64,000 bases of DNA from Solirubrobacterales bacterium (GTDB taxonomy: Bacteria; Actinomycetota; Thermoleophilia; Solirubrobacterales; 70-9): NCBI GenBank assembly GCA_025936755.1, contig JAICSS010000014.1:1-64000 (forward strand), given 5' to 3'. A program made the translations under genes and the position numbers. Shown here one piece after another: positions 26,026-37,114 of the stretch. Positions within the stretch are counted from its first letter, which is position 1. Each line of letters begins with the position of its first letter. The notes under the pieces were generated by a model. That model saw only the letters and a program-made list of their open reading frames with translations, did no database searches and was not told the DNA's origin.

Positions 26026-26308
26026 ATGAACAGCAGACGATTGGCCCTACTCGCGACGACGGCGCTGGCCGTGGCGCTGGCCGTGGGCGTGCTCGCGCTA
26101 CCGGCCCAGGCGGCGCTGCGCCACATCGACGGCACCGTCGCCTCCAAGAGCTCCGACGACCACAGCTTCCGCCTCACCACCCAGAGCGGCAACCGGATCC
26201 GGATCGAGGTCAACGGCACGACCCGCTTCGAGCGGATCGCCGGGTTCGGGGCCCTCCACAAGGGGATGCGGATCGAGGTCGAAGCCCGGCGCACCGACGG
26301 CGGCCTAG
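26026..26308 (+). pseudogene. 5' part of a secreted DUF5666-like gene, split by the insertion element
   Basis: From ATG 26026 (after GGGAAGG) the product has a signal peptide ending ALPAQA and a small beta-rich domain: IDGTVASKSSDDHSFRLTTQ, then a segment ending GMRIEVEARRTDGG. This is the pattern of DUF5666-type OB-like secreted domains. The frame then runs into the insertion element and stops at 26362-26364 with a foreign tail. The original 3' end lies at 28980-29059. Joined through one CTAG, the frame reads RRTDGGLVAKHVEPRGGG without a break. Confidence 0.8.
26305..26308. repeat. left CTAG target-site duplication
   Basis: CTAG occurs directly outside the left inverted end of the element, and again at 28976-28979 outside the right end. 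Keeping one copy restores the coding frame of the interrupted gene. Confidence 0.85.
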
Positions 26309-26325
26309 GAGGGATTGGCGAAACT
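26309..26325. repeat. left terminal inverted repeat
   Basis: GAGGGATTGGCGAAACT. The inner 11 bases (TTGGCGAAACT) are identical to those of the right end in inverted orientation, and so are the outer GAG. Confidence 0.85.
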
Positions 26326-26670
26326 CGCAGGCTCAATAGCCATGCGGGTTCGCAGGGTCGGTGATTTCATGGATACCTCCGGTTCGGGCTGGTTCTACCC
26401 CAGCGATTTATCGTTGAGAACGTGCCGCTCCTGAGGGGCGTCCGGTCTCTGTCGGGACTGCGAGCGCTTTTGAGCGCTTTGGGGTCGGCCCGCGTGCTAC
26501 ACCCCACGGGCTACAAGGGCTTACAGGCCACTTTGCTCGTGACACAAGCGGCGGAATCTCGCTTGCAGAGCCAAATGCAGTGTGGACACATTCCGTCCGG
26601 TCTCAATGTAACCCTGCCCCTTGCGTTGAGTTCGCTGATGGCGTGCTGAACAACTGAATAGCGGTGAGGG

Positions 26671-26698
26671 ACGACCCCCGATGGCAACCGGGGGTCGT
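26671..26698 (+). terminator. hairpin/terminator 1 in the element
   Basis: ACGACCCCCG pairs perfectly with CGGGGGTCGT over an 8-nt loop, followed by TC rather than a long T run, so termination would be weak. The stem core GACCCCCG/CGGGGGTC is the same as in the hairpin at 27413-27443. Confidence 0.6.
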
Positions 26699-26925
26699 TC
26701 TGCGTCTGAAGGCATCCGACCCTTGCTGTAGACCATCTGCCAGCCGACCTCGGTCGGTGTTGCCGCAGTACCGCCACCCAGCCATCAGGAAGTGAGTGAA
26801 GCTGAAATGACGATCACCTACTCACGAGAACTCAAATGCTCCCAGTCTTTCCGCCACGTGCCGTAATCCCGTCGAACACTTGCTTCGCGGAATGCTGCTC
26901 TGGCAGCAGCGATAGCCCCTTCCTG

Positions 26926-26950
26926 AAAGCGCCCCGTCGGGCGCTTTTTT
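26926..26950 (+). terminator. strong terminator 2 in the element
   Basis: AAAGCGCCC pairs with GGGCGCTTT across a CGTC loop and ends in six T. This is a textbook plus-strand intrinsic terminator with no protein gene upstream of it inside the element, which implies a transcribed non-coding RNA. Confidence 0.85.
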
Positions 26951-27043
26951 CGTTCTGGGCCGCAACGTCTTCCGAATCTTGCCCGCGACCGGATAGTCGG
27001 GCGCGACGACAAAAGGAGTTGGTGATGTCCAGGAGGTGAGAGT

Positions 27044-27081
27044 GCGGGCCGGGCTTCCGCTTGACAGAGACCCCGGCCCGC
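27044..27081 (+). other. GC-rich 10-bp hairpin in the element
   Basis: GCGGGCCGGG and CCCGGCCCGC form a perfect stem with an 18-nt loop. It stands 9 nt before the terminator at 27091-27132 and may be part of the same structured RNA. Confidence 0.6.
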
Positions 27082-27090
27082 CATCCCAAC

Positions 27091-27132
27091 GGCGGGGGCG
27101 GAGCGTTTGCCCGCTCCGCTTCCCGCCCTTTT
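27091..27132 (+). terminator. terminator 3, directly ahead of the tRNA-like gene
   Basis: GGCGGG-G-GCGGAGCG and CGCTCCGC-TT-CCCGCC form a 14-bp stem with one small internal loop and a 6-nt apical loop, followed by CTTTT. It ends 3 nt before the tRNA-like gene, so that gene is unlikely to be read from the upstream transcript. Confidence 0.7.
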
Positions 27133-27135
27133 CAC

Positions 27136-27226
27136 GCCCCCATAGCTCAATGGAAAAACGGCCCACAGGCCACAGAGCAGCGCCCTTTCGAAGCGCCATG
27201 TCCCGGTTCGAATCCGGGTGGGGGCC
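27136..27226 (+). tRNA. tRNA-Glu(TTC)-like gene with an 18-nt insertion in the D loop
   Basis: The acceptor (GCCCCCA/TGGGGGC), T arm (CCCGG-TTCGAAT-CCGGG), D stem (GCTC/GAGC) and anticodon arm (GCGCC-CTTTCGA-AGCGC) all form. The last anticodon-stem pair is a C-A mismatch. The anticodon would be TTC (27187-27189) with U33, and the acceptor and loop resemble actinobacterial tRNA-Glu. The D loop is 26 nt instead of about 8 and contains its own small hairpin (GGCC-CACA-GGCC, 27160-27171). Removing 18 nt leaves an ordinary D loop (AATGGACA). CCA is not encoded. It may be a working tRNA, a tRNA mimic or a decayed copy. Confidence 0.65.
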
Positions 27227-27352
27227 TTTCAACCTTATTCGTCTCGCCGTGTCGGCGGTTAACGAGTTGTCGCCATATTCGGCGTTTAATCGAGGAGCCC
27301 TGCACCGGAGAAATGCCGAAAACTGGGGTGCGAGAAAGGCAATTTTTGGCTT

Positions 27353-27399
27353 TCTGATGCGGTTTGCCGTCCGATTCAGGCGGTAGATTCCGCATCAGA
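27353..27399. repeat. 10-bp inverted repeat in the element
   Basis: TCTGATGCGG (27353-27362) and CCGCATCAGA (27390-27399) are perfect inverted copies 27 bp apart. They lie between the tRNA-like gene and the transposase and may be a transposase-binding or regulatory site. Confidence 0.6.
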
Positions 27400-27412
27400 T
27401 TCCTACAAAAGC

Positions 27413-27443
27413 GACCCCCGCGAAGTTGGAGCTTCCGGGGGTC
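27413..27443 (+). promoter_or_regulatory. leader hairpin ahead of the transposase
   Basis: GACCCCCG-C-GAAG pairs with CTTC-CGGGGGTC around a 6-nt loop: 12 base pairs with one bulged C. It sits 23 nt before the transposase start. A second perfect hairpin (GGTACCGC-TG-GCGGTACC, 27482-27499) covers codons 6-11. Such structures in insertion elements often block translation from read-through transcripts; that role here is inferred. Confidence 0.55.
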
Positions 27444-27466
27444 AGGCCAAACGAGGTGCAACTCGC

Positions 27467-28597
27467 GTGGCAGTTCCCGATGGTACCGCTGGCGGTACCG
27501 GCCAACTTGCAGTTCTGCTCGACTCCCCGGAGATTGGGCGGCTGATCCGCGAGCTTGAGGCGACCCGCTGGACCGGGCGTCCCGGCTTCCCGGTTCGGAC
27601 GATGGTCGGGCTGGCGCTGGTGAAGTCGATCTACGCGCTGCCGACGTGGACGAAGGTCGTCGCCCTGGTGGCCGAGCACTGGAGGCTCCAGCGCGTCCTT
27701 GGCTGCGAGGGAAACCCGCCGTCGAAGTGGTCGGCCTATCGCTTCGCCGCCAAGCTGCGAGAGAACTCCGGGTCGGTCGAGCGTTGCATCGACTCGGTTG
27801 TCGAAGGGCTGAAAGCGAAGCTGCCGACCTACGGACGCGACCTCGCCATCGACGCGAGCGACATGCCCGCCTACGCGAACGGCCAGCGCTTCGTCTCCAA
27901 GGACAGCGAGGTCGAACGCAACTGGCACACCGATCCCGATGCTTCGTGGGGCCACCGCTCGGCGGTCTCGACCCGACGCGGCGGCGGGTTCTTCGGCTAT
28001 CGCCTCCATGCTGCGGTCTGCACCGCCACCGACCTCCCCGTCGCATGGTCGGTCGAGACTGCGAAGGCCAACGAAACCCGGTTCGCCGCCGACCTGATCG
28101 ACACGGCGCAGCGCCGCGGCTGCATGGCGGCAACGGCGGCGATGGACAAGGGCTACGACCAGCGCCCGGTCTACGAGCAATGCGCCGAGCGCGATTGCCT
28201 GCCGCTGATCCCGCTGCGCCAGACGCCGGACGTGAAGCGTGGCGACCATCGCCCGCCGGAATGCCAACACGGGGTCTGGACCTTCGCCGGGTCTGACCGC
28301 AAGCGGGGGGCGACGAAGTGGCGCTGCCCCACCGGGGAGTGCAAGCCCGCCTCAACGTGGGTTGCCGCCGACCGGCTGCATCCGTTGATCCCCCGAGAGA
28401 CCAAGCGGTTCAAGGCGGGTTACCGCAAGCGGGCGGCAGTCGAGCGCGAGTTCGGCCGCTTGAAGAATCAGTGGGGGTTGAAGCCCCTACGGGTCCGTGG
28501 CTTGGATCGCGTTCGACTGCACGCCGACCTGACGGTGTTGACGAAGCTCGCCTGCGCGCTGTCGCGCGCTCGGGGTCAGGCGTTGAATAGCTCGTAG
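27467..28597 (+). CDS. DDE transposase of the IS4/IS5/IS1182 superfamily
   Basis: A 376-residue transposase. An N-terminal DUF772-like part (FPVRTMVGLALVKSIYALPTW) precedes the catalytic core. The triad is Asp129 (LAIDASD), Asp227 (AAMDKGYD) and Glu326 (VEREFGRLK). The C-terminal signature Y319-R322-E326-K333 has the Y(2)R(3)E(6)K spacing of this superfamily. A Cys-rich segment (CQHGV and CPTGEC, about 266-293) may bind zinc. The GTG at 27467 is taken as start. No frameshift is seen, so the enzyme is probably active. Its 3' end overlaps the convergent gene by 22 bp. Confidence 0.9.
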   Translation: MAVPDGTAGGTGQLAVLLDSPEIGRLIRELEATRWTGRPGFPVRTMVGLALVKSIYALPTWTKVVALVAEHWRLQRVLGCEGNPPSKWSAYRFAAKLRENSGSVERCIDSVVEGLKAKLPTYGRDLAIDASDMPAYANGQRFVSKDSEVERNWHTDPDASWGHRSAVSTRRGGGFFGYRLHAAVCTATDLPVAWSVETAKANETRFAADLIDTAQRRGCMAATAAMDKGYDQRPVYEQCAERDCLPLIPLRQTPDVKRGDHRPPECQHGVWTFAGSDRKRGATKWRCPTGECKPASTWVAADRLHPLIPRETKRFKAGYRKRAAVEREFGRLKNQWGLKPLRVRGLDRVRLHADLTVLTKLACALSRARGQALNSS

Positions 28598-28842
28598 GCG
28601 CGGAGGGCGCAGCGGGTCGGCAGCACCGCTCCCTCGCAGCGGAAAAGCAAGCCGAACTGGGTCAGGTCGCGGACGGCTCTTTCGATCCCGTCGCGCTTCT
28701 GGAAGTCATCGCCTCCCAATTCGCGGATCAGGTCTGAGAGGCGCAGCGTGGCGGGCTGGGCCTCGATGACGTGGAGCAGGATCGCTTCTTCGATCTGACG
28801 ATCCTCGGCGGCGTTGGAACCTGCCTTAGGCTGGTCGTGCAT
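28576..28842 (-). CDS. small winged-helix-like protein carried by the element
   Basis: An 88-residue protein with predicted helix-helix-wing layout: ILLHVIEAQPATLRLSDLI, RDGIERAVRDLTQFGLLFR, then EGAVLPTRCALRAYELF. It has the look of winged-helix DNA-binding proteins but no named family is certain. A strong ribosome-binding site (AGGAGGT) lies just ahead. Further upstream TTGACG and TCCTAA with 18-nt spacing may form its promoter (about 28895-28935). It may regulate the element or be a captured host gene. Confidence 0.72.
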   Translation of the reverse strand: MHDQPKAGSNAAEDRQIEEAILLHVIEAQPATLRLSDLIRELGGDDFQKRDGIERAVRDLTQFGLLFRCEGAVLPTRCALRAYELFNA

Positions 28843-28958
28843 CAGGACTTACCTCCTGGTGTCACGCCCCCGGCCGTTAGCGCGGTGCGGGGGCACTTGT
28901 TGTTAGGACCCGGCGAACCTAGAGTCCGTCAACAATGCAGCGCAAGGGAATCGCCAAT

Positions 28959-28975
28959 AGTTTCGCCAAGGTCTC
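28959..28975. repeat. right terminal inverted repeat
   Basis: AGTTTCGCCAAGGTCTC, the inverted partner of the left end with three central mismatches. Confidence 0.85.
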
Positions 28976-28979
28976 CTAG
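28976..28979. repeat. right CTAG target-site duplication
   Basis: Second copy of CTAG, directly outside the right inverted end. CTAG targets are typical of IS5-group elements. Confidence 0.85.
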
Positions 28980-29059
28980 TCGCCAAGCACGTTGAGCCGC
29001 GCGGCGGCGGGGAAAACGGCGGTGGCGGTGGCGCCGACGACGGCCCGAATCACACCTGA
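28980..29059 (+). pseudogene. 3' part of the interrupted DUF5666-like gene
   Basis: After the right CTAG the frame continues GTC (using the G of CTAG), then AKHVEPRGGG, a glycine-rich linker and DDGPNHT before TGA at 29057-29059. The Gly-rich tail is plausible for a small secreted protein and continues exactly the frame lost at 26308. It has no start of its own. Confidence 0.75.
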
Positions 29060-31360: not shown

Positions 31361-32548
31361 TTACCCCGTCTCCGAGGTTTCGACAACGCGGAACTCGATC
31401 CCGGCCTTCTGCACTCGCTCGAGCAGGGGATCGCCCATCGCCGCGGCGGTGGTGAGCTGGCCGGACTTGGCGGGAAGGTCGTCGAAGGCGAGGCAGAGGC
31501 CGGCCTCGGCGAGCATCTTCGAGGTCTCGCTGTAGCCGGGGTCGCCGCCCTTGACCTCGGTGACCACCCGCCTGCCGCCGCCCTCGCCGACGAAGACGAT
31601 CTTGAACCAGCTCTTCTCGCGTTTCTCCGCGCTCGGTCCCTCCCCGGGCGCTTTCATCTTCAGCAGCAGCTTCCGGGTCGGCGGCAGCTGCGCGAGCGCG
31701 AACCCGGTCCCGACCCCGGCGGCGATGGCGCCTACCGTGGTCAGGTGCCTGGCGACCATGTTGTGGCCGTAGGTGAAGTTCGGCCCATAGCGATCGAGCG
31801 CGGCGGCGGAGCGGCGGACGATCGCGCCGTCGATCGTCGGCAGCGGCACCGACCAGCCTCCGAGCCACTCCTCGCGGCGGACCCGCGCCGGCGCCGAGTG
31901 GACCTCGCGGCCGGCCGGGCGGGGCTCGGCCGCGCGCCGTTCCTTTGCCGCGCTCAACGTCTGCCGGGCCCGGCCGAAGCCGTTGATCGCCGAGTGGTAG
32001 GTGCCGCCGGAGAAGCTGGCGTTGCTGCGGACGTAGCCGTTGACGGTCAGGGGCACGCCCTCGGGCAGCTGCTTGACGGTGAAGTAGGCGCCGAGGTCGT
32101 GCGGGATCGAGTCGAAGCCGCAGCAGTGGACGAGGCGGGCGCCGCTGCGCTCTGCCTCGGCCTGGTGCTCGACCCAGACCCGGTCGACGAACTCGGGCTC
32201 GCCGGTGAGGTCGCAGTAGTCGGTTCCGGCGGCCGCGCAGGCCGCCGCCAGCGGCTCGCCGTAGAGGGCGTAGGGACCGACCGTGGTGATCACGACCCGG
32301 GTGGCCTCGGCCACCCCGCGCAGCGCCTCGCGGTCGGCCGCATCGGCCTCGATCAGCTCGGGGGCCGGCGCTTCCGGCGACGACGCCGCCAGCCGCTCCT
32401 TCACCGCCTCCAGCTTGGCGCGGTTGCGGCCGACGAGCGCCCAGCGCATCTCGGCCGGCCCGTGGGCGGCGAGGTAGCCGGCCGTGAGCCCGCCGGTGAA
32501 GCCGGTCGCCCCGAAGAGAACGACGTCGAAGGGGCGCGAAGACTCCAT
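31361..32548 (-). CDS. saccharopine-dehydrogenase-like / trans-acting enoyl-reductase-like protein
   Basis: A 395-residue NAD(P)-dependent oxidoreductase with an N-terminal Rossmann motif (VVLFGATGFTGGLTAGYLA). LTGEPEFVDRVWVEHQAEAE and CGFDSIPHDLGAYF follow, as in the mycobacterial trans-acting enoyl reductases of phthiocerol lipid synthesis (Rv2953, Rv2449c type). It is divergent from the ligase-carrier-thioesterase gene, with a shared palindromic control region. An attractive idea is that it reduces an acyl chain bound to that protein's carrier domain; this is inference. Confidence 0.82.
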   Translation of the reverse strand: MESSRPFDVVLFGATGFTGGLTAGYLAAHGPAEMRWALVGRNRAKLEAVKERLAASSPEAPAPELIEADAADREALRGVAEATRVVITTVGPYALYGEPLAAACAAAGTDYCDLTGEPEFVDRVWVEHQAEAERSGARLVHCCGFDSIPHDLGAYFTVKQLPEGVPLTVNGYVRSNASFSGGTYHSAINGFGRARQTLSAAKERRAAEPRPAGREVHSAPARVRREEWLGGWSVPLPTIDGAIVRRSAAALDRYGPNFTYGHNMVARHLTTVGAIAAGVGTGFALAQLPPTRKLLLKMKAPGEGPSAEKREKSWFKIVFVGEGGGRRVVTEVKGGDPGYSETSKMLAEAGLCLAFDDLPAKSGQLTTAAAMGDPLLERVQKAGIEFRVVETSETG

Positions 32549-32583
32549 CTGCGCAATTCTCTCAGGCTTGCGGTCCTGTTGCA

Positions 32584-32642
32584 GCACGTGCAACGGGCGC
32601 CGCAGACGACCAGTCAGCGACCACGACGCCCGTTGCACGTGC
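32584..32642. promoter_or_regulatory. large palindromic operator candidate between divergent genes
   Basis: GCACGTGCAACGGGCG (32584-32599) recurs perfectly inverted at 32627-32642. Each arm also contains the small palindrome GCACGTGC, and the two palindrome centres are 51 bp apart, close to five helical turns. It fills the middle of the 148-bp gap between the divergent starts at 32548 and 32697. This suits a dimeric repressor that binds both sites cooperatively and controls both genes. Confidence 0.7.
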
Positions 32643-32696
32643 AGGACTTCAACGCCGCCCGTTTACAAATGTCAGGCCAAAGTCAAAGAACCAGAT

Positions 32697-35600
32697 ATGC
32701 GTAGCGGCACCGGGGTCCCCGCAAATTCGGAGATAACGCAGATACGGGAGTTCGCCGAGCTATGCGAAGAGCGCTCCGGCAGGGCCTTGGCGACGCCCCA
32801 GGAGCTCCACGCCTTCTCGGTCGAGAGCTTCCGCGAGTTCTGGCGCCTCTTCCTCGAGTGGGCGGATCCGCTCCGCTCCGGAAGCGCCGACCCGGTCTGC
32901 GAGGGCGACGCCCTCGAGACCGCCGCCTTCTTCCCGAACCTGGAGCTGAACTACGCCGAGAACCTGCTCGAGCCGCGAACGCCCGAGGACGACGAGCGGA
33001 TCGCCCTCCTCGCCCGCCACGGCGACGGCGGCCGCGAGGAGCTGACCCGGCGCGAGCTGCGCGAGCGGGTCCGGCGCCTCGCCGCGCACCTGCGCGCGCT
33101 CGGGATCGGCAGCGGCGACCGCGTGGCGGCGATCGCCGCCAACGACCCGGAGGCGATCGTCGCCGCTCTCGCGGCCGCCACCCTCGGCGCCACCTTTTCC
33201 AGCGCCGCTCCGGAGATGGGGGCACCGGCAATCCTCAGCCGCTTCCAGCAGCTCTCGCCGAAGCTGCTCTTCGCCACCACTCGCGGCGACGCCCTCGGCG
33301 AGGTCGTCGCCTCGCTGCCGTCGCTGGAGGCGGTGATCGCGCTCGACGACGCCACCGCCCCCGACACCGTCGGCGTCCCCCTCCACCGGATCTCCGACCT
33401 GCTCGCCTCTCCCCCGCCCGCACCTCTGCCAGGCGGCTGGGAGCGGTTCCCCTTCAACCACCCGCTCTTCATCCTCTTCACCTCCGGCACCACCGGGGCA
33501 CCGAAGTGCATCGTCCACGGCGCCGGCGGAACCCTGCTCGAGCACCTGAAGGAGCACCGCCTGCACGGCGACCTGCGCCCCGCGGACACCCTCTTCTTCC
33601 AGACCAGCGCCGCCTGGATGATGTGGAACTGGCAGCTCTCGGCGCTCGCCTGCGGCGCCCGCGTCGTCGTCTACGACGGCCCCCTCGCCGGCCCGGAGAC
33701 GCTGTGGAGGATCGTCGCCGAGGAGGAGGCGACGGTCTTCGGCACCAGCCCTCCCTACCTGCAGCTCTGCCAGGACAGCGGCTACTCGCCGCGCCGCGAG
33801 GACCCGCCGCGGGCGCTGCGCTCGGTCCTCTCCACCGGCTCGGTCCTGCGCGACTGGCAGTTCGACTGGGTAGCCGCCGAGGTCGGCCCGGTGAAGCTGC
33901 AGTCGATCTCGGGCGGGACCGACATCATCGGCTGCTTCCTCCTCGGCCACCCGGAGCTGCCGGTTCGCCGCGGGATGCTTCAATGCCGCAGCCTCGGCCT
34001 CGACGTGCAGGCCCTTGCGACCGAGTCGACGCCGTCGGACACGGGCGTGGGCGAGCTCGTCTGCCGCAACCCCTTCCCCTCGCGGCCGCTCGGACTGCTC
34101 GGCGACGAGGACGGCAGCCGCTTCCACGACGCCTATTTCGCCGCCAACGAGGGGGTGTGGACGCACGGCGACCTGATCGAGTTCGACGTCGACGGCCAGG
34201 CGCGAATCCACGGCCGCTCCGACGGGGTGCTCAACATCCAGGGCGTCCGCATCGGCCCCAGCGAGATCTACCAGGCGCTGACCGAGGTCCCGGAGGTGCG
34301 GGAGGCGATGGCGGTCGAACAGCGCCGGGACGGCGGCGCCCGTCTCGTCCTCCTCGTCGTCCTCCGCGAGGGAGCCCGGCTCGACACCGGCCTGACGCTG
34401 CGGATCCGCAGGGAGATCGGGGAGCAGACGACCGCCCTGCACGTGCCCGAGCTGGTGGTCGCGGTCGAGGAGCTGCCGGTGACCCACAGCGGCAAGCGCT
34501 CCGAGCGGGCCGGGCGGGACGCGGTCGAGGGGCGCGCGGCGGCGAACCGGAAGGCGCTGGCGAACCCGGGCTCGCTGGGGCGGATCGAGCGAGCGGTGGC
34601 CGGGGTCGAGGCGGAGCTGGCGGAGCGCGAGGCCATCTCGCTGACCGGCGCCGGCGGCACCGTCGAGAAGATGCGGGCGATCTGGGAAGCGGTCCTCGGC
34701 GTCCGGGGCCTCGGCGAGGACGACGACTTCTTCGCCCTCGGCGGCACCTCGCTGCAGGCGGTCCGGGTCTTCACCGCGATCCGCGACCGGCTGGGCGTCG
34801 ACCTGCCGCTCTCGGTCCTGATCGAGGCGCCGACCGTGGCCGAGCTGGCCGCCGTGGTCGACGAGCCCGGCAAGCACTTCGACCCGCTGGTGCCGATGCG
34901 CTCCGGCGGCGGCGGCCCGCCGCTCTTCCTCGTCCACTCGATCTGGGGGGACGTGCTGGGGATGCGGCAGATCGCGGTGGCGATGGAAAGCGACGTCCCC
35001 GTCTACGGGCTGCGGGCGCGCGGGCTGCGGGGCGAAGAGCCGCAGCGCAGCGTCGAGGAGATGGCGGCGAGCTACGCCGAGGTGATCCGCGGCCTGCAGC
35101 CGCAGGGCCCCTACCGCGTCGCCGGCCACTCCTTCGGCGGCCTGCTCGCCTTCGAGATCGCGCGGCTGTTGAGCGAGCAGGGCGAGGAGATCGGCTGGCT
35201 GGGGATCGTCGACGCCGAGCTCAGTGCCGAAGCCCACACGCCGGTCCGCCGCCTCGGCCACCGCCTCGCCCTCCCCTTCCACTTCGCCCGAGCCGCCCTG
35301 CGCAGTCCCGGCGCCGCCGCCCGAGCCGGGCTGCGGGTGATCCCCAGCCTCCTGCGCCGCGGCTTCTCCCACTTCCACCGCGATGCCGCCCTGGCCGAAT
35401 CGGAGGCGACCTGGATGGAAGGCGCCTCGCCCCAGCACCAGCGCCTCGCCGCCCACTTCCTCGAGCTCGCCGCCGCCTACCGCCCCCGCCCCTACCGCGG
35501 CTCGATGACCTACTTCCTCCCCACCGTCCGCCGCTTCCACCTCTTCGCCGACCCGCTCCCGGTCTGGCGGCGGGTCACCGCGGGGACGATCGAGATCGAG

Positions 35601-35720
35601 CGCGTGCCGGGACCCCACGTGGGGATGGTCTCCGGCGACTCGGCGCCGGTGGTTGCGGAGATCGTCGACCGGCACCTGCGGGCGCAGGCGAGCCGGCCGG
35701 CGCCGCCGGCCGGCGGCTAA
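32697..35720 (+). CDS. acetoacetyl-CoA-synthetase-like ligase fused to carrier protein and thioesterase
   Basis: 1,007 residues in three parts. Residues about 1-650 resemble acetoacetyl-CoA synthetase: N-terminal cap (SVESFREFWRLFLEWADPL), AMP-binding FTSGTTGAPKCIVHG (about 261), HGRSDGVLNIQGVRIG, and the catalytic Lys in VTHSGKRSE. Residues about 655-725 form a phosphopantetheine carrier domain with Ser in LGGTSLQAV (about 685). Residues about 735-1,000 form an NRPS/PKS-type thioesterase with the nucleophile in GHSFGG (about 811) and a late His (GPHVGM). This A-T-TE layout with an acyl-CoA-synthetase-type ligase suggests loading, modification and release of a short oxo or hydroxy acid. The product is unknown. 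Confidence 0.88.
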   Translation: MRSGTGVPANSEITQIREFAELCEERSGRALATPQELHAFSVESFREFWRLFLEWADPLRSGSADPVCEGDALETAAFFPNLELNYAENLLEPRTPEDDERIALLARHGDGGREELTRRELRERVRRLAAHLRALGIGSGDRVAAIAANDPEAIVAALAAATLGATFSSAAPEMGAPAILSRFQQLSPKLLFATTRGDALGEVVASLPSLEAVIALDDATAPDTVGVPLHRISDLLASPPPAPLPGGWERFPFNHPLFILFTSGTTGAPKCIVHGAGGTLLEHLKEHRLHGDLRPADTLFFQTSAAWMMWNWQLSALACGARVVVYDGPLAGPETLWRIVAEEEATVFGTSPPYLQLCQDSGYSPRREDPPRALRSVLSTGSVLRDWQFDWVAAEVGPVKLQSISGGTDIIGCFLLGHPELPVRRGMLQCRSLGLDVQALATESTPSDTGVGELVCRNPFPSRPLGLLGDEDGSRFHDAYFAANEGVWTHGDLIEFDVDGQARIHGRSDGVLNIQGVRIGPSEIYQALTEVPEVREAMAVEQRRDGGARLVLLVVLREGARLDTGLTLRIRREIGEQTTALHVPELVVAVEELPVTHSGKRSERAGRDAVEGRAAANRKALANPGSLGRIERAVAGVEAELAEREAISLTGAGGTVEKMRAIWEAVLGVRGLGEDDDFFALGGTSLQAVRVFTAIRDRLGVDLPLSVLIEAPTVAELAAVVDEPGKHFDPLVPMRSGGGGPPLFLVHSIWGDVLGMRQIAVAMESDVPVYGLRARGLRGEEPQRSVEEMAASYAEVIRGLQPQGPYRVAGHSFGGLLAFEIARLLSEQGEEIGWLGIVDAELSAEAHTPVRRLGHRLALPFHFARAALRSPGAAARAGLRVIPSLLRRGFSHFHRDAALAESEATWMEGASPQHQRLAAHFLELAAAYRPRPYRGSMTYFLPTVRRFHLFADPLPVWRRVTAGTIEIERVPGPHVGMVSGDSAPVVAEIVDRHLRAQASRPAPPAGG

Positions 35721-37114
35721 TAGGTCGAGGCGGGCGCCGGAGCGCCGCTCTGCACCGGGTGTCCGCCGTCTCGCCACACCCCGACGCCCTTGCCGACGTG
35801 GGTGACCTCGAAGCCGGCGCGCTGGAGGATCGAGGCGGCGAGCCCGCTGCGCTTGCCGCCGCGGCAGATCGTCGCGATCGGGCGGTCGCGGGGGAGCTCG
35901 TCGAGGCGGCCGGCGAGGTCGCCGTAGGGGATGTGGAGGGAGCCGGGGATGTGCTCGCCGGCGTACTCGGAGGCGTTGCGGACGTCGAGGACGAGCGGGC
36001 CGCCGTCGCCGTCGACGCGGCGGGCGAGCTCGTCGGGGTCGATCAGCTCGATCCGGTGGACGGGCCGCTCCTCGGTGCGCCAGGCGGTCATCCCGCCCTC
36101 GAGGTAGCCGCGGACCGCGAGGCCGACCGAGGCCAGCAGCTGCGCCGCGTGGCGCTCGTCCCCGTCGGAAGCGGCGACGACGACGATGTCGCTGCCCGCG
36201 GGCGCGACGCGGGAGACCTTGGTCGCGAAGCCGGTGTCGTAGGAGGAGGCGCTGAGGGCGCCCTCGATGTGGGCCTCGTCGAACTGGTCGTTCGTGCGCC
36301 CGTCGATGACGACGGCGCCCTCCTCGACCAGCTCCTCGACCTCGTAGGGACTGAGCGGCGCCGGCGTCCCGAAGTCCTCGACCAGCGGGCCGCGGTTGAG
36401 GCCGACGATGCGCTCGACGTTCGGCGGTTTGTCGCCGAGCGAGCCCACCTGCTCCTCGACGAACTCGGCCTCGCCAGCGATCAGCAGGGCGCGGTTGTGG
36501 CGGCGCTCGAAGCCGATCGTCGAGGAGGACTTGAGGTCGAGCCCGGAGCCGCCGCAGAGCGAGCCGCCGAGGTGCGCGGGCCAGACCTCGACCTCGTCGG
36601 GCAGCGACAGCAGCCGCTGGTGCAGGGAGCGGAACATGTCGGCGGCGCCCTCCCGCGGCTCGACCGCGAGATCCGGCCGGGCGACGTCGCCGATGAAGAG
36701 CGAGTCGCCGGTCAGGAGCGCCCAGGGCGCCCCGTCGCGCCCCGCGTCGCTGAGGAGGAAGCAGGTGTGCTCGGGCCGGTGGCCGGGCGTGTGGATCGCC
36801 TCGACCACCAGATCGCCCAGCTCCAGCTTCCAGCCGTCGCCGAACGGCTCGTGCGGGTACTCGGCCGCGGCCAGCCTGTGCACGTGGACCGTCGCCCCGG
36901 TGCTGCGGCAGAGCCGCCCGTGACCGGAGACGTGGTCGGCGTGGTTGTGGGTCTCGAGCACGTGCCCGATCCGCACCCCGTGCAGCCCCGCCAGCCGCCG
37001 GTAGGGGTCGGTGTCCCACTGGGGATCGACCACCACCGCCGTCCCCGATTCGCGATCGGCGACGAAGTAGGAGGCGCAGCCCAGGTCCTCGTGGATGATC
37101 TGGCGGAAAAGCAT
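35717..37114 (-). CDS. metallo-beta-lactamase-fold hydrolase with two rhodanese domains
   Basis: A 465-residue protein. Residues about 1-240 are an MBL fold of the persulfide-dioxygenase/glyoxalase II group with THNHADHVSGH, TPGHRPEHT and LLTGDSLFIGDVARPDL. Two rhodanese domains follow (about 262-360 and 370-460). The second has the active-site Cys (ICRGGKRSG). The first has no Cys at the equivalent point (VVVAASDGDERH) and is likely structural. The family handles sulfane sulfur such as glutathione or low-molecular-weight persulfides. It overlaps the 3' end of the ligase fusion by 4 bp. Confidence 0.9.
   Translation of the reverse strand: MLFRQIIHEDLGCASYFVADRESGTAVVVDPQWDTDPYRRLAGLHGVRIGHVLETHNHADHVSGHGRLCRSTGATVHVHRLAAAEYPHEPFGDGWKLELGDLVVEAIHTPGHRPEHTCFLLSDAGRDGAPWALLTGDSLFIGDVARPDLAVEPREGAADMFRSLHQRLLSLPDEVEVWPAHLGGSLCGGSGLDLKSSSTIGFERRHNRALLIAGEAEFVEEQVGSLGDKPPNVERIVGLNRGPLVEDFGTPAPLSPYEVEELVEEGAVVIDGRTNDQFDEAHIEGALSASSYDTGFATKVSRVAPAGSDIVVVAASDGDERHAAQLLASVGLAVRGYLEGGMTAWRTEERPVHRIELIDPDELARRVDGDGGPLVLDVRNASEYAGEHIPGSLHIPYGDLAGRLDELPRDRPIATICRGGKRSGLAASILQRAGFEVTHVGKGVGVWRDGGHPVQSGAPAPASTY

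Follow-up and report, generated by a model that had tools for sequence, protein, structure and literature searches.

The 64,000-nucleotide stretch of Solirubrobacterales DNA analyzed here (the window) contains a gene for a protein of 1,007 amino acids in which an adenylation (A) domain of the acetoacetyl-CoA synthetase (AACS) type is followed by a carrier, or thiolation (T), domain and a thioesterase (TE). Judging by its sequence, it is fairly probable that this A-T-TE protein is a self-contained NRPS-like enzyme that loads its own carrier and moves the acyl group from the carrier in place of CoA, the divergent reductase gene beside it being unrelated. In such an enzyme, a small carboxylic acid with a beta-oxo or beta-hydroxy group would be adenylated by the A domain and then handed on in cis, not to CoA but to the phosphopantetheine carried by the T domain. 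A PPTase gene located elsewhere in the genome would supply the enzyme that arms the carrier, and in the last step the TE would hydrolyze or cyclize the acyl group or transfer it to an alcohol, an amine, or a sugar as acceptor. The clade to which the protein belongs is a real, coherent, and widespread enzyme family, most likely an offshoot of AACS that loads carriers. The family name that A-T-TE proteins carry in databases is probably wrong, and metabolic reconstructions that rely on the label "acetoacetate--CoA ligase" would be led astray. Should the clade indeed load carriers, a ligase of primary metabolism has been turned into a modular acyl donor whose acceptor enzyme was swapped repeatedly.

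Domain structure of the A-T-TE protein

The A-T-TE gene occupies positions 32697–35720 of the forward strand, as delimited by profile matches and by homologues sharing its start. ATG 32697 is the likely start codon and was favored over GTG 32484, because the frame opened by the latter would cross an inverted repeat and homologues align from the ATG. Comparison with one relative supports the coding nature of the gene: the proteins share 67% amino acid identity over 998 codons, and the differences by codon position (0.22/0.21/0.42) are concentrated at position 3.

The first-pass annotation, made from the sequence of the window, had proposed a fusion of an acetoacetyl-CoA-synthetase-type ligase with a carrier and a thioesterase. 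The domain search bore this out: Pfam recognized AMP-binding (residues 100–459), AMP-binding_C (524–600), PP-binding (658–720), and Thioesterase (742–992), which gives the order A, T, TE, and the signature residues were intact. The A domain (approximately residues 1–634; 32697–34600, forward strand) contained Lys600 and the other A-domain signature residues, a shortened CoA-phosphate loop, and the AACS motifs WMMWN and SGGTD. Since the protein scored above the cutoffs of both TIGR01217, an NCBIfam equivalog (590 versus 521 bits), and PRK03584 (650 versus 639), its first domain is of the AACS type, as had been claimed. The nearest solved structure to this domain is the acetoacetate-CoA ligase of S. 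lividans (PDB 4wd1).

The carrier domain (residues 658–720; 34668–34857, forward strand) carried the attachment residue Ser685 within a GGTSL motif. The type I thioesterase domain (residues 742–992; 34920–35673, forward strand) was identified by Pfam, alignment, and an AlphaFold model, and contained a likely catalytic triad of Ser812, Asp839, and His974, with the positions assigned by alignment. The model of this domain had a pLDDT of 88, and its PDB matches were NRPS, PKS, and FAS thioesterases. Enzymes of this type are capable of hydrolysis, cyclization, or transfer. A Sfp-type PPTase is encoded on another contig of the same genome (G000:C25:43708-44106), and no PPTase gene adjoins the A-T-TE copy in the window.

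Probable carrier loading instead of CoA use

In a phylogeny built from 107 A domains, 59 carrier-linked sequences were separated from 47 canonical AACS by a branch with an SH-aLRT value of 99; the single ACS row formed a long branch, and its placement was not used. The CoA phosphates are contacted in ACS by Arg191 and Arg584, and substitutions of these residues impair the use of CoA (PMC10455477). The residue set with which a canonical AACS would bind the CoA phosphates was not found in the window protein, in which the loop is shortened and Gly575 occupies the position of Arg584. Arginine is kept at the latter position in 34 of 43 A-T-TE proteins, and its replacement is therefore not a clade-wide loss. 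A different pattern was observed at the position of ACS Arg194, which also contacts CoA: in an alignment that is gappy in the CoA loop, and in which canonical AACS themselves have Tyr rather than Arg at the Arg191 position, R or K was present in 46 of 47 canonical AACS versus 0 of 59 carrier-linked sequences. The essential adenylation residues Trp307, Asp492, Arg507, Arg518, and Lys600 (equivalents of ACS Trp309, Asp500, Arg515, Arg526, and Lys609) were invariant in both sets.

The carrier Ser was present in all 42 TE-bearing proteins, including that of the window. Among the same proteins, the Asp of the TE triad was found in 42/42, and Ser and His in 39/42 each, the nucleophile Ser being missing, as aligned, in the other three. 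Taken together, the lost basic residue of the CoA loop, the conserved carrier Ser, and the mostly conserved TE triads support loading of the fused carrier. The window enzyme probably no longer uses CoA, but loads its own carrier, and its product would be released by the built-in TE. The WMM and SGGTD motifs are common to AACS and the A-T-TE clade and thus do not predict the substrate; group-specific differences between the two were found as well.

The protein is very unlikely to be an acetoacetyl-CoA synthetase of the usual kind whose C-terminal extension serves no purpose. With AACS, such as S. lividans AacS, it shares the AACS motifs, the catalytic residues, and a score above the equivalog cutoff of TIGR01217, and relatives are annotated as "acetoacetate--CoA ligase", but it differs by the fusion with T and TE (1,007 residues versus about 650 in a free-standing AACS), by the lost basic residue of the CoA-phosphate loop, and by its position in a separate clade. 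The conservation of the carrier Ser and of most TE triads, as well as the linked PPTase genes, argues against a useless extension. Moreover, a canonical AACS (41% identical) is encoded by a separate gene elsewhere in the genome (C6:138585-140480).

Exchange of the last domain within the clade

Several members of the clade end in a domain other than TE. One Blastococcus protein (L086) had a hexapeptide transferase domain after the carrier, as found by Pfam, and in another (L091), placed beside it in the tree, the match also ended after the carrier. Bradyrhizobium members had a GNAT-like C-terminal domain, in which Acetyltransf_9 (PF13527) was recognized in five of seven proteins with a best E-value of 2.1e-6, single members scanned apart scoring below the curated cutoff; the fold model of this domain (pLDDT 41) was too poor and was not used. 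An A-T protein of Bradyrhizobium iriomotense (L097, 10143-11252) ended in a domain of the aminoglycoside-3-N-acetyltransferase type (PF02522, E 1.8e-34). In Myxococcota (L102, L103, L105, and L116), the A domains stood alone, with no fusion. The neighbors of L105 were a small carrier gene and a gene with a weak GDSL-like match (E 0.0036), while L103 had an MBOAT gene nearby, and neighbor gene clusters of these kinds recurred in three to four of the Myxococcota loci.

Since the swapped last domains all move acyl groups, the clade appears to make an acyl donor for different acceptors. It is possible, if somewhat short of probable, that the AACS-type ligases of this clade as a whole exchanged CoA for a carrier and became an acyl-donor module, combined in several phyla with TE, hexapeptide, GNAT, AAC(3)-type, or MBOAT enzymes that attach one conserved short acyl group to different acceptors.

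The exchange of TE for N- or O-acyltransferase domains in relatives fits transfer better than self-condensation, and it weighs against a stand-alone small-molecule synthetase, in which the TE would join two loaded acyl units or cyclize one (Claisen or ester) into a furanone, pyrone, or quinone-like product, with no sugar or lipid acceptor. We consider this rather unlikely, although the gene stands alone both in the window and in the Burkholderiales replicons of Caballeronia and Cupriavidus, and one gene therefore seems enough. The modeled TE fold also resembles the release domains of NRPS and PKS. A similar architecture is known in fungal NRPS-like A-T-TE quinone and furanone synthetases, which, according to published work (PMC9047271), have the same domain order, contain a carrier needing phosphopantetheinylation, and condense two aromatic alpha-keto acids. 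The window protein differs from them in its A domain, which is of the AACS type.

Distribution and genomic context of A-T-TE relatives

When 84,980 species genomes were scanned, 79 loci were obtained, and the analysis covered the first 58 of them (L060–L117). The usual partner of A-T-TE in actinobacterial relatives is a Sfp-type PPTase gene. All five relatives from the same order (G047, G202, G220, G142, and G141) have it immediately upstream and in the same orientation as A-T-TE. In 38 of the 58 loci, which include the five order relatives again, it lies upstream on the A-T-TE strand and ends 27–263 bp ahead of the point where the A-T-TE match begins; since many of these loci are close kin within Geodermatophilaceae, the 38 cases should not be taken as independent. 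In the class to which the window belongs, the family is distributed patchily, being present in 6 of the 399 genomes sampled. Near full-length A-T-TE copies with 44.6–47.8% identity were found in seven Burkholderiales replicons. No PPTase gene was found within 14 kb of A-T-TE in the four replicons examined, and in two replicons the protein was annotated as "acetoacetate--CoA ligase". The search for phage copies gave a single weak partial match. No paper joining AACS, carrier protein, thioesterase domain, and nonribosomal peptide was found in the literature, and the combination of AACS, thioesterase, and NRPS-like gave an incidental match.

In four Geodermatophilaceae loci (L084, L088, L100, and L117), the gene divergent from A-T-TE and next to it encoded another protein, about 25% identical to A-T-TE. 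In L084, this protein contained AMP-binding, PP-binding, and Thioesterase domains according to Pfam.

Several relatives from Geodermatophilaceae and Pseudonocardia were located among genes for Polysacc_synt_2, UDP-glucose dehydrogenase, Wzz, glycosyltransferases, and LytR-CpsA-Psr proteins. Together with the carrier, MBOAT, and GDSL-like genes accompanying Myxococcota members, this context would agree with a role in the decoration of cell-surface polysaccharides, where a carrier-bound acyl group, perhaps 3-hydroxybutyryl or acetoacetyl, would be put on sugars by analogy with the addition of D-alanine to teichoic acid by the Dlt system. The latter consists of the ligase DltA, the carrier DltC, and the MBOAT protein DltB. 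It resembles the clade in that a ligase loads a carrier for acyl transfer, and Myxococcota members likewise group ligase, carrier, MBOAT, and GDSL-like genes. On the other hand, the ligases of the clade are of the AACS rather than the D-alanine type, the window protein is a TE fusion, and no MBOAT acyltransferase was recognized by eye among the ORFs surrounding it. No polysaccharide genes were recognized beside A-T-TE in the window, in the two Burkholderiales replicons with annotation, or in the order relative G047. The neighbors of canonical AACS, used as a control, were catabolic in look; of their 46 families, 25 were listed, and none of these was a glycosyltransferase. Polysaccharide loci are also common insertion hot spots. 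Because the loci scanned were hand-picked, the control list covered 25 of 46 families, and no such genes were recognized beside the window gene, we keep the link to polysaccharides as an unlikely rival explanation and not as a finding.

The divergent reductase and the inverted repeat

The product of the gene next to A-T-TE (31366–32548, reverse strand) is an NAD(P)-binding protein of the saccharopine dehydrogenase type (PF03435, E 2.8e-11). Its resemblance to trans-enoyl reductases, suggested in the first-pass annotation, is a candidate assignment: neither an NCBIfam match nor a PDB relative was found for the protein. The first-pass annotation regarded this reductase as a pathway partner of A-T-TE, a proposal contradicted by comparison of genomes. 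The same-genus genome G033 has the reductase gene, the core of the inverted repeat, and an MBL-rhodanese gene in succession, with no A-T-TE between them. Therefore, the A-T-TE segment of about 3 kb was either gained in the genome of the window or lost in G033. In the window, the MBL-rhodanese gene (35717–37114, reverse strand) is the right flank and marks the other border of this extra segment. The reductase gene was found in 11 of 50 family genomes (E<=1e-80) and A-T-TE in 2 of 50, both genes being present together only in the genome of the window. The reductase was absent near A-T-TE in all other relative loci examined, in a search whose query contained both proteins (only residues 1–394 being the reductase). 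In most other family genomes tested, orthologues of the reductase gene had a different context, and an MBL-rhodanese gene was close by only in G040.

A lack of conservation of the pair in other genomes had been named beforehand as an observation that would refute the proposal; the fusion is conserved, and the pair is not. On this comparative evidence, the divergent reductase is an unrelated neighbor of A-T-TE, outside the proposed system. The two genes are neighbors that diverge from a strong inverted repeat, but that they constitute one co-regulated pathway with a shared palindrome is very improbable given the reductase and repeat core of G033, the single co-occurrence among 50 family genomes, and the lack of any relative locus with the reductase near A-T-TE.

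Elsewhere in the window, a segment at approximately 26306–29017 with a transposase-like ORF (27467–28597) remained unmatched when the syntenic region of G033 was compared by blastn.

The inverted repeat (32573–32647) lies between the reductase and A-T-TE genes and has arms of 19 nt, 95% complementary to each other (32584–32602 and 32624–32642). Its folding z-scores were -6.4 on the forward strand and -7.3 on the reverse strand. The palindrome described in the first-pass annotation is thus real, but its interpretation as a shared control region did not stand, since the core of the repeat is kept in G033 (52 identical bases in the alignment) despite the absence of A-T-TE. Even when one mismatch was allowed, the 12-mer GTTGCACGTGCA had no further occurrence in the genome, no matching repeat was found upstream of reductase orthologues in other members of the genus, and Rfam gave no match of note for the window repeat. 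We considered the palindrome as an operator of a regulon and rejected this candidate, because GTTGCACGTGCA is unique in the genome and the repeat core exists without A-T-TE. An unrelated long near-perfect hairpin was located directly upstream of the reductase orthologue in G042 (L162, ~2790–2850).

The 20-nt loop sequence CAGACGACCAGTCAGCGACC recurs once in the genome (C6:135269), inside a different long stem (G000:C6:135249-135309; L006, ~1480–1540). A search of four sister genomes for the surroundings of this second hairpin recovered no more than the loop itself, in G033, where CAGACGACCAGTCAGCGACC is also the loop of an imperfect hairpin (L011, ~1480–1540).
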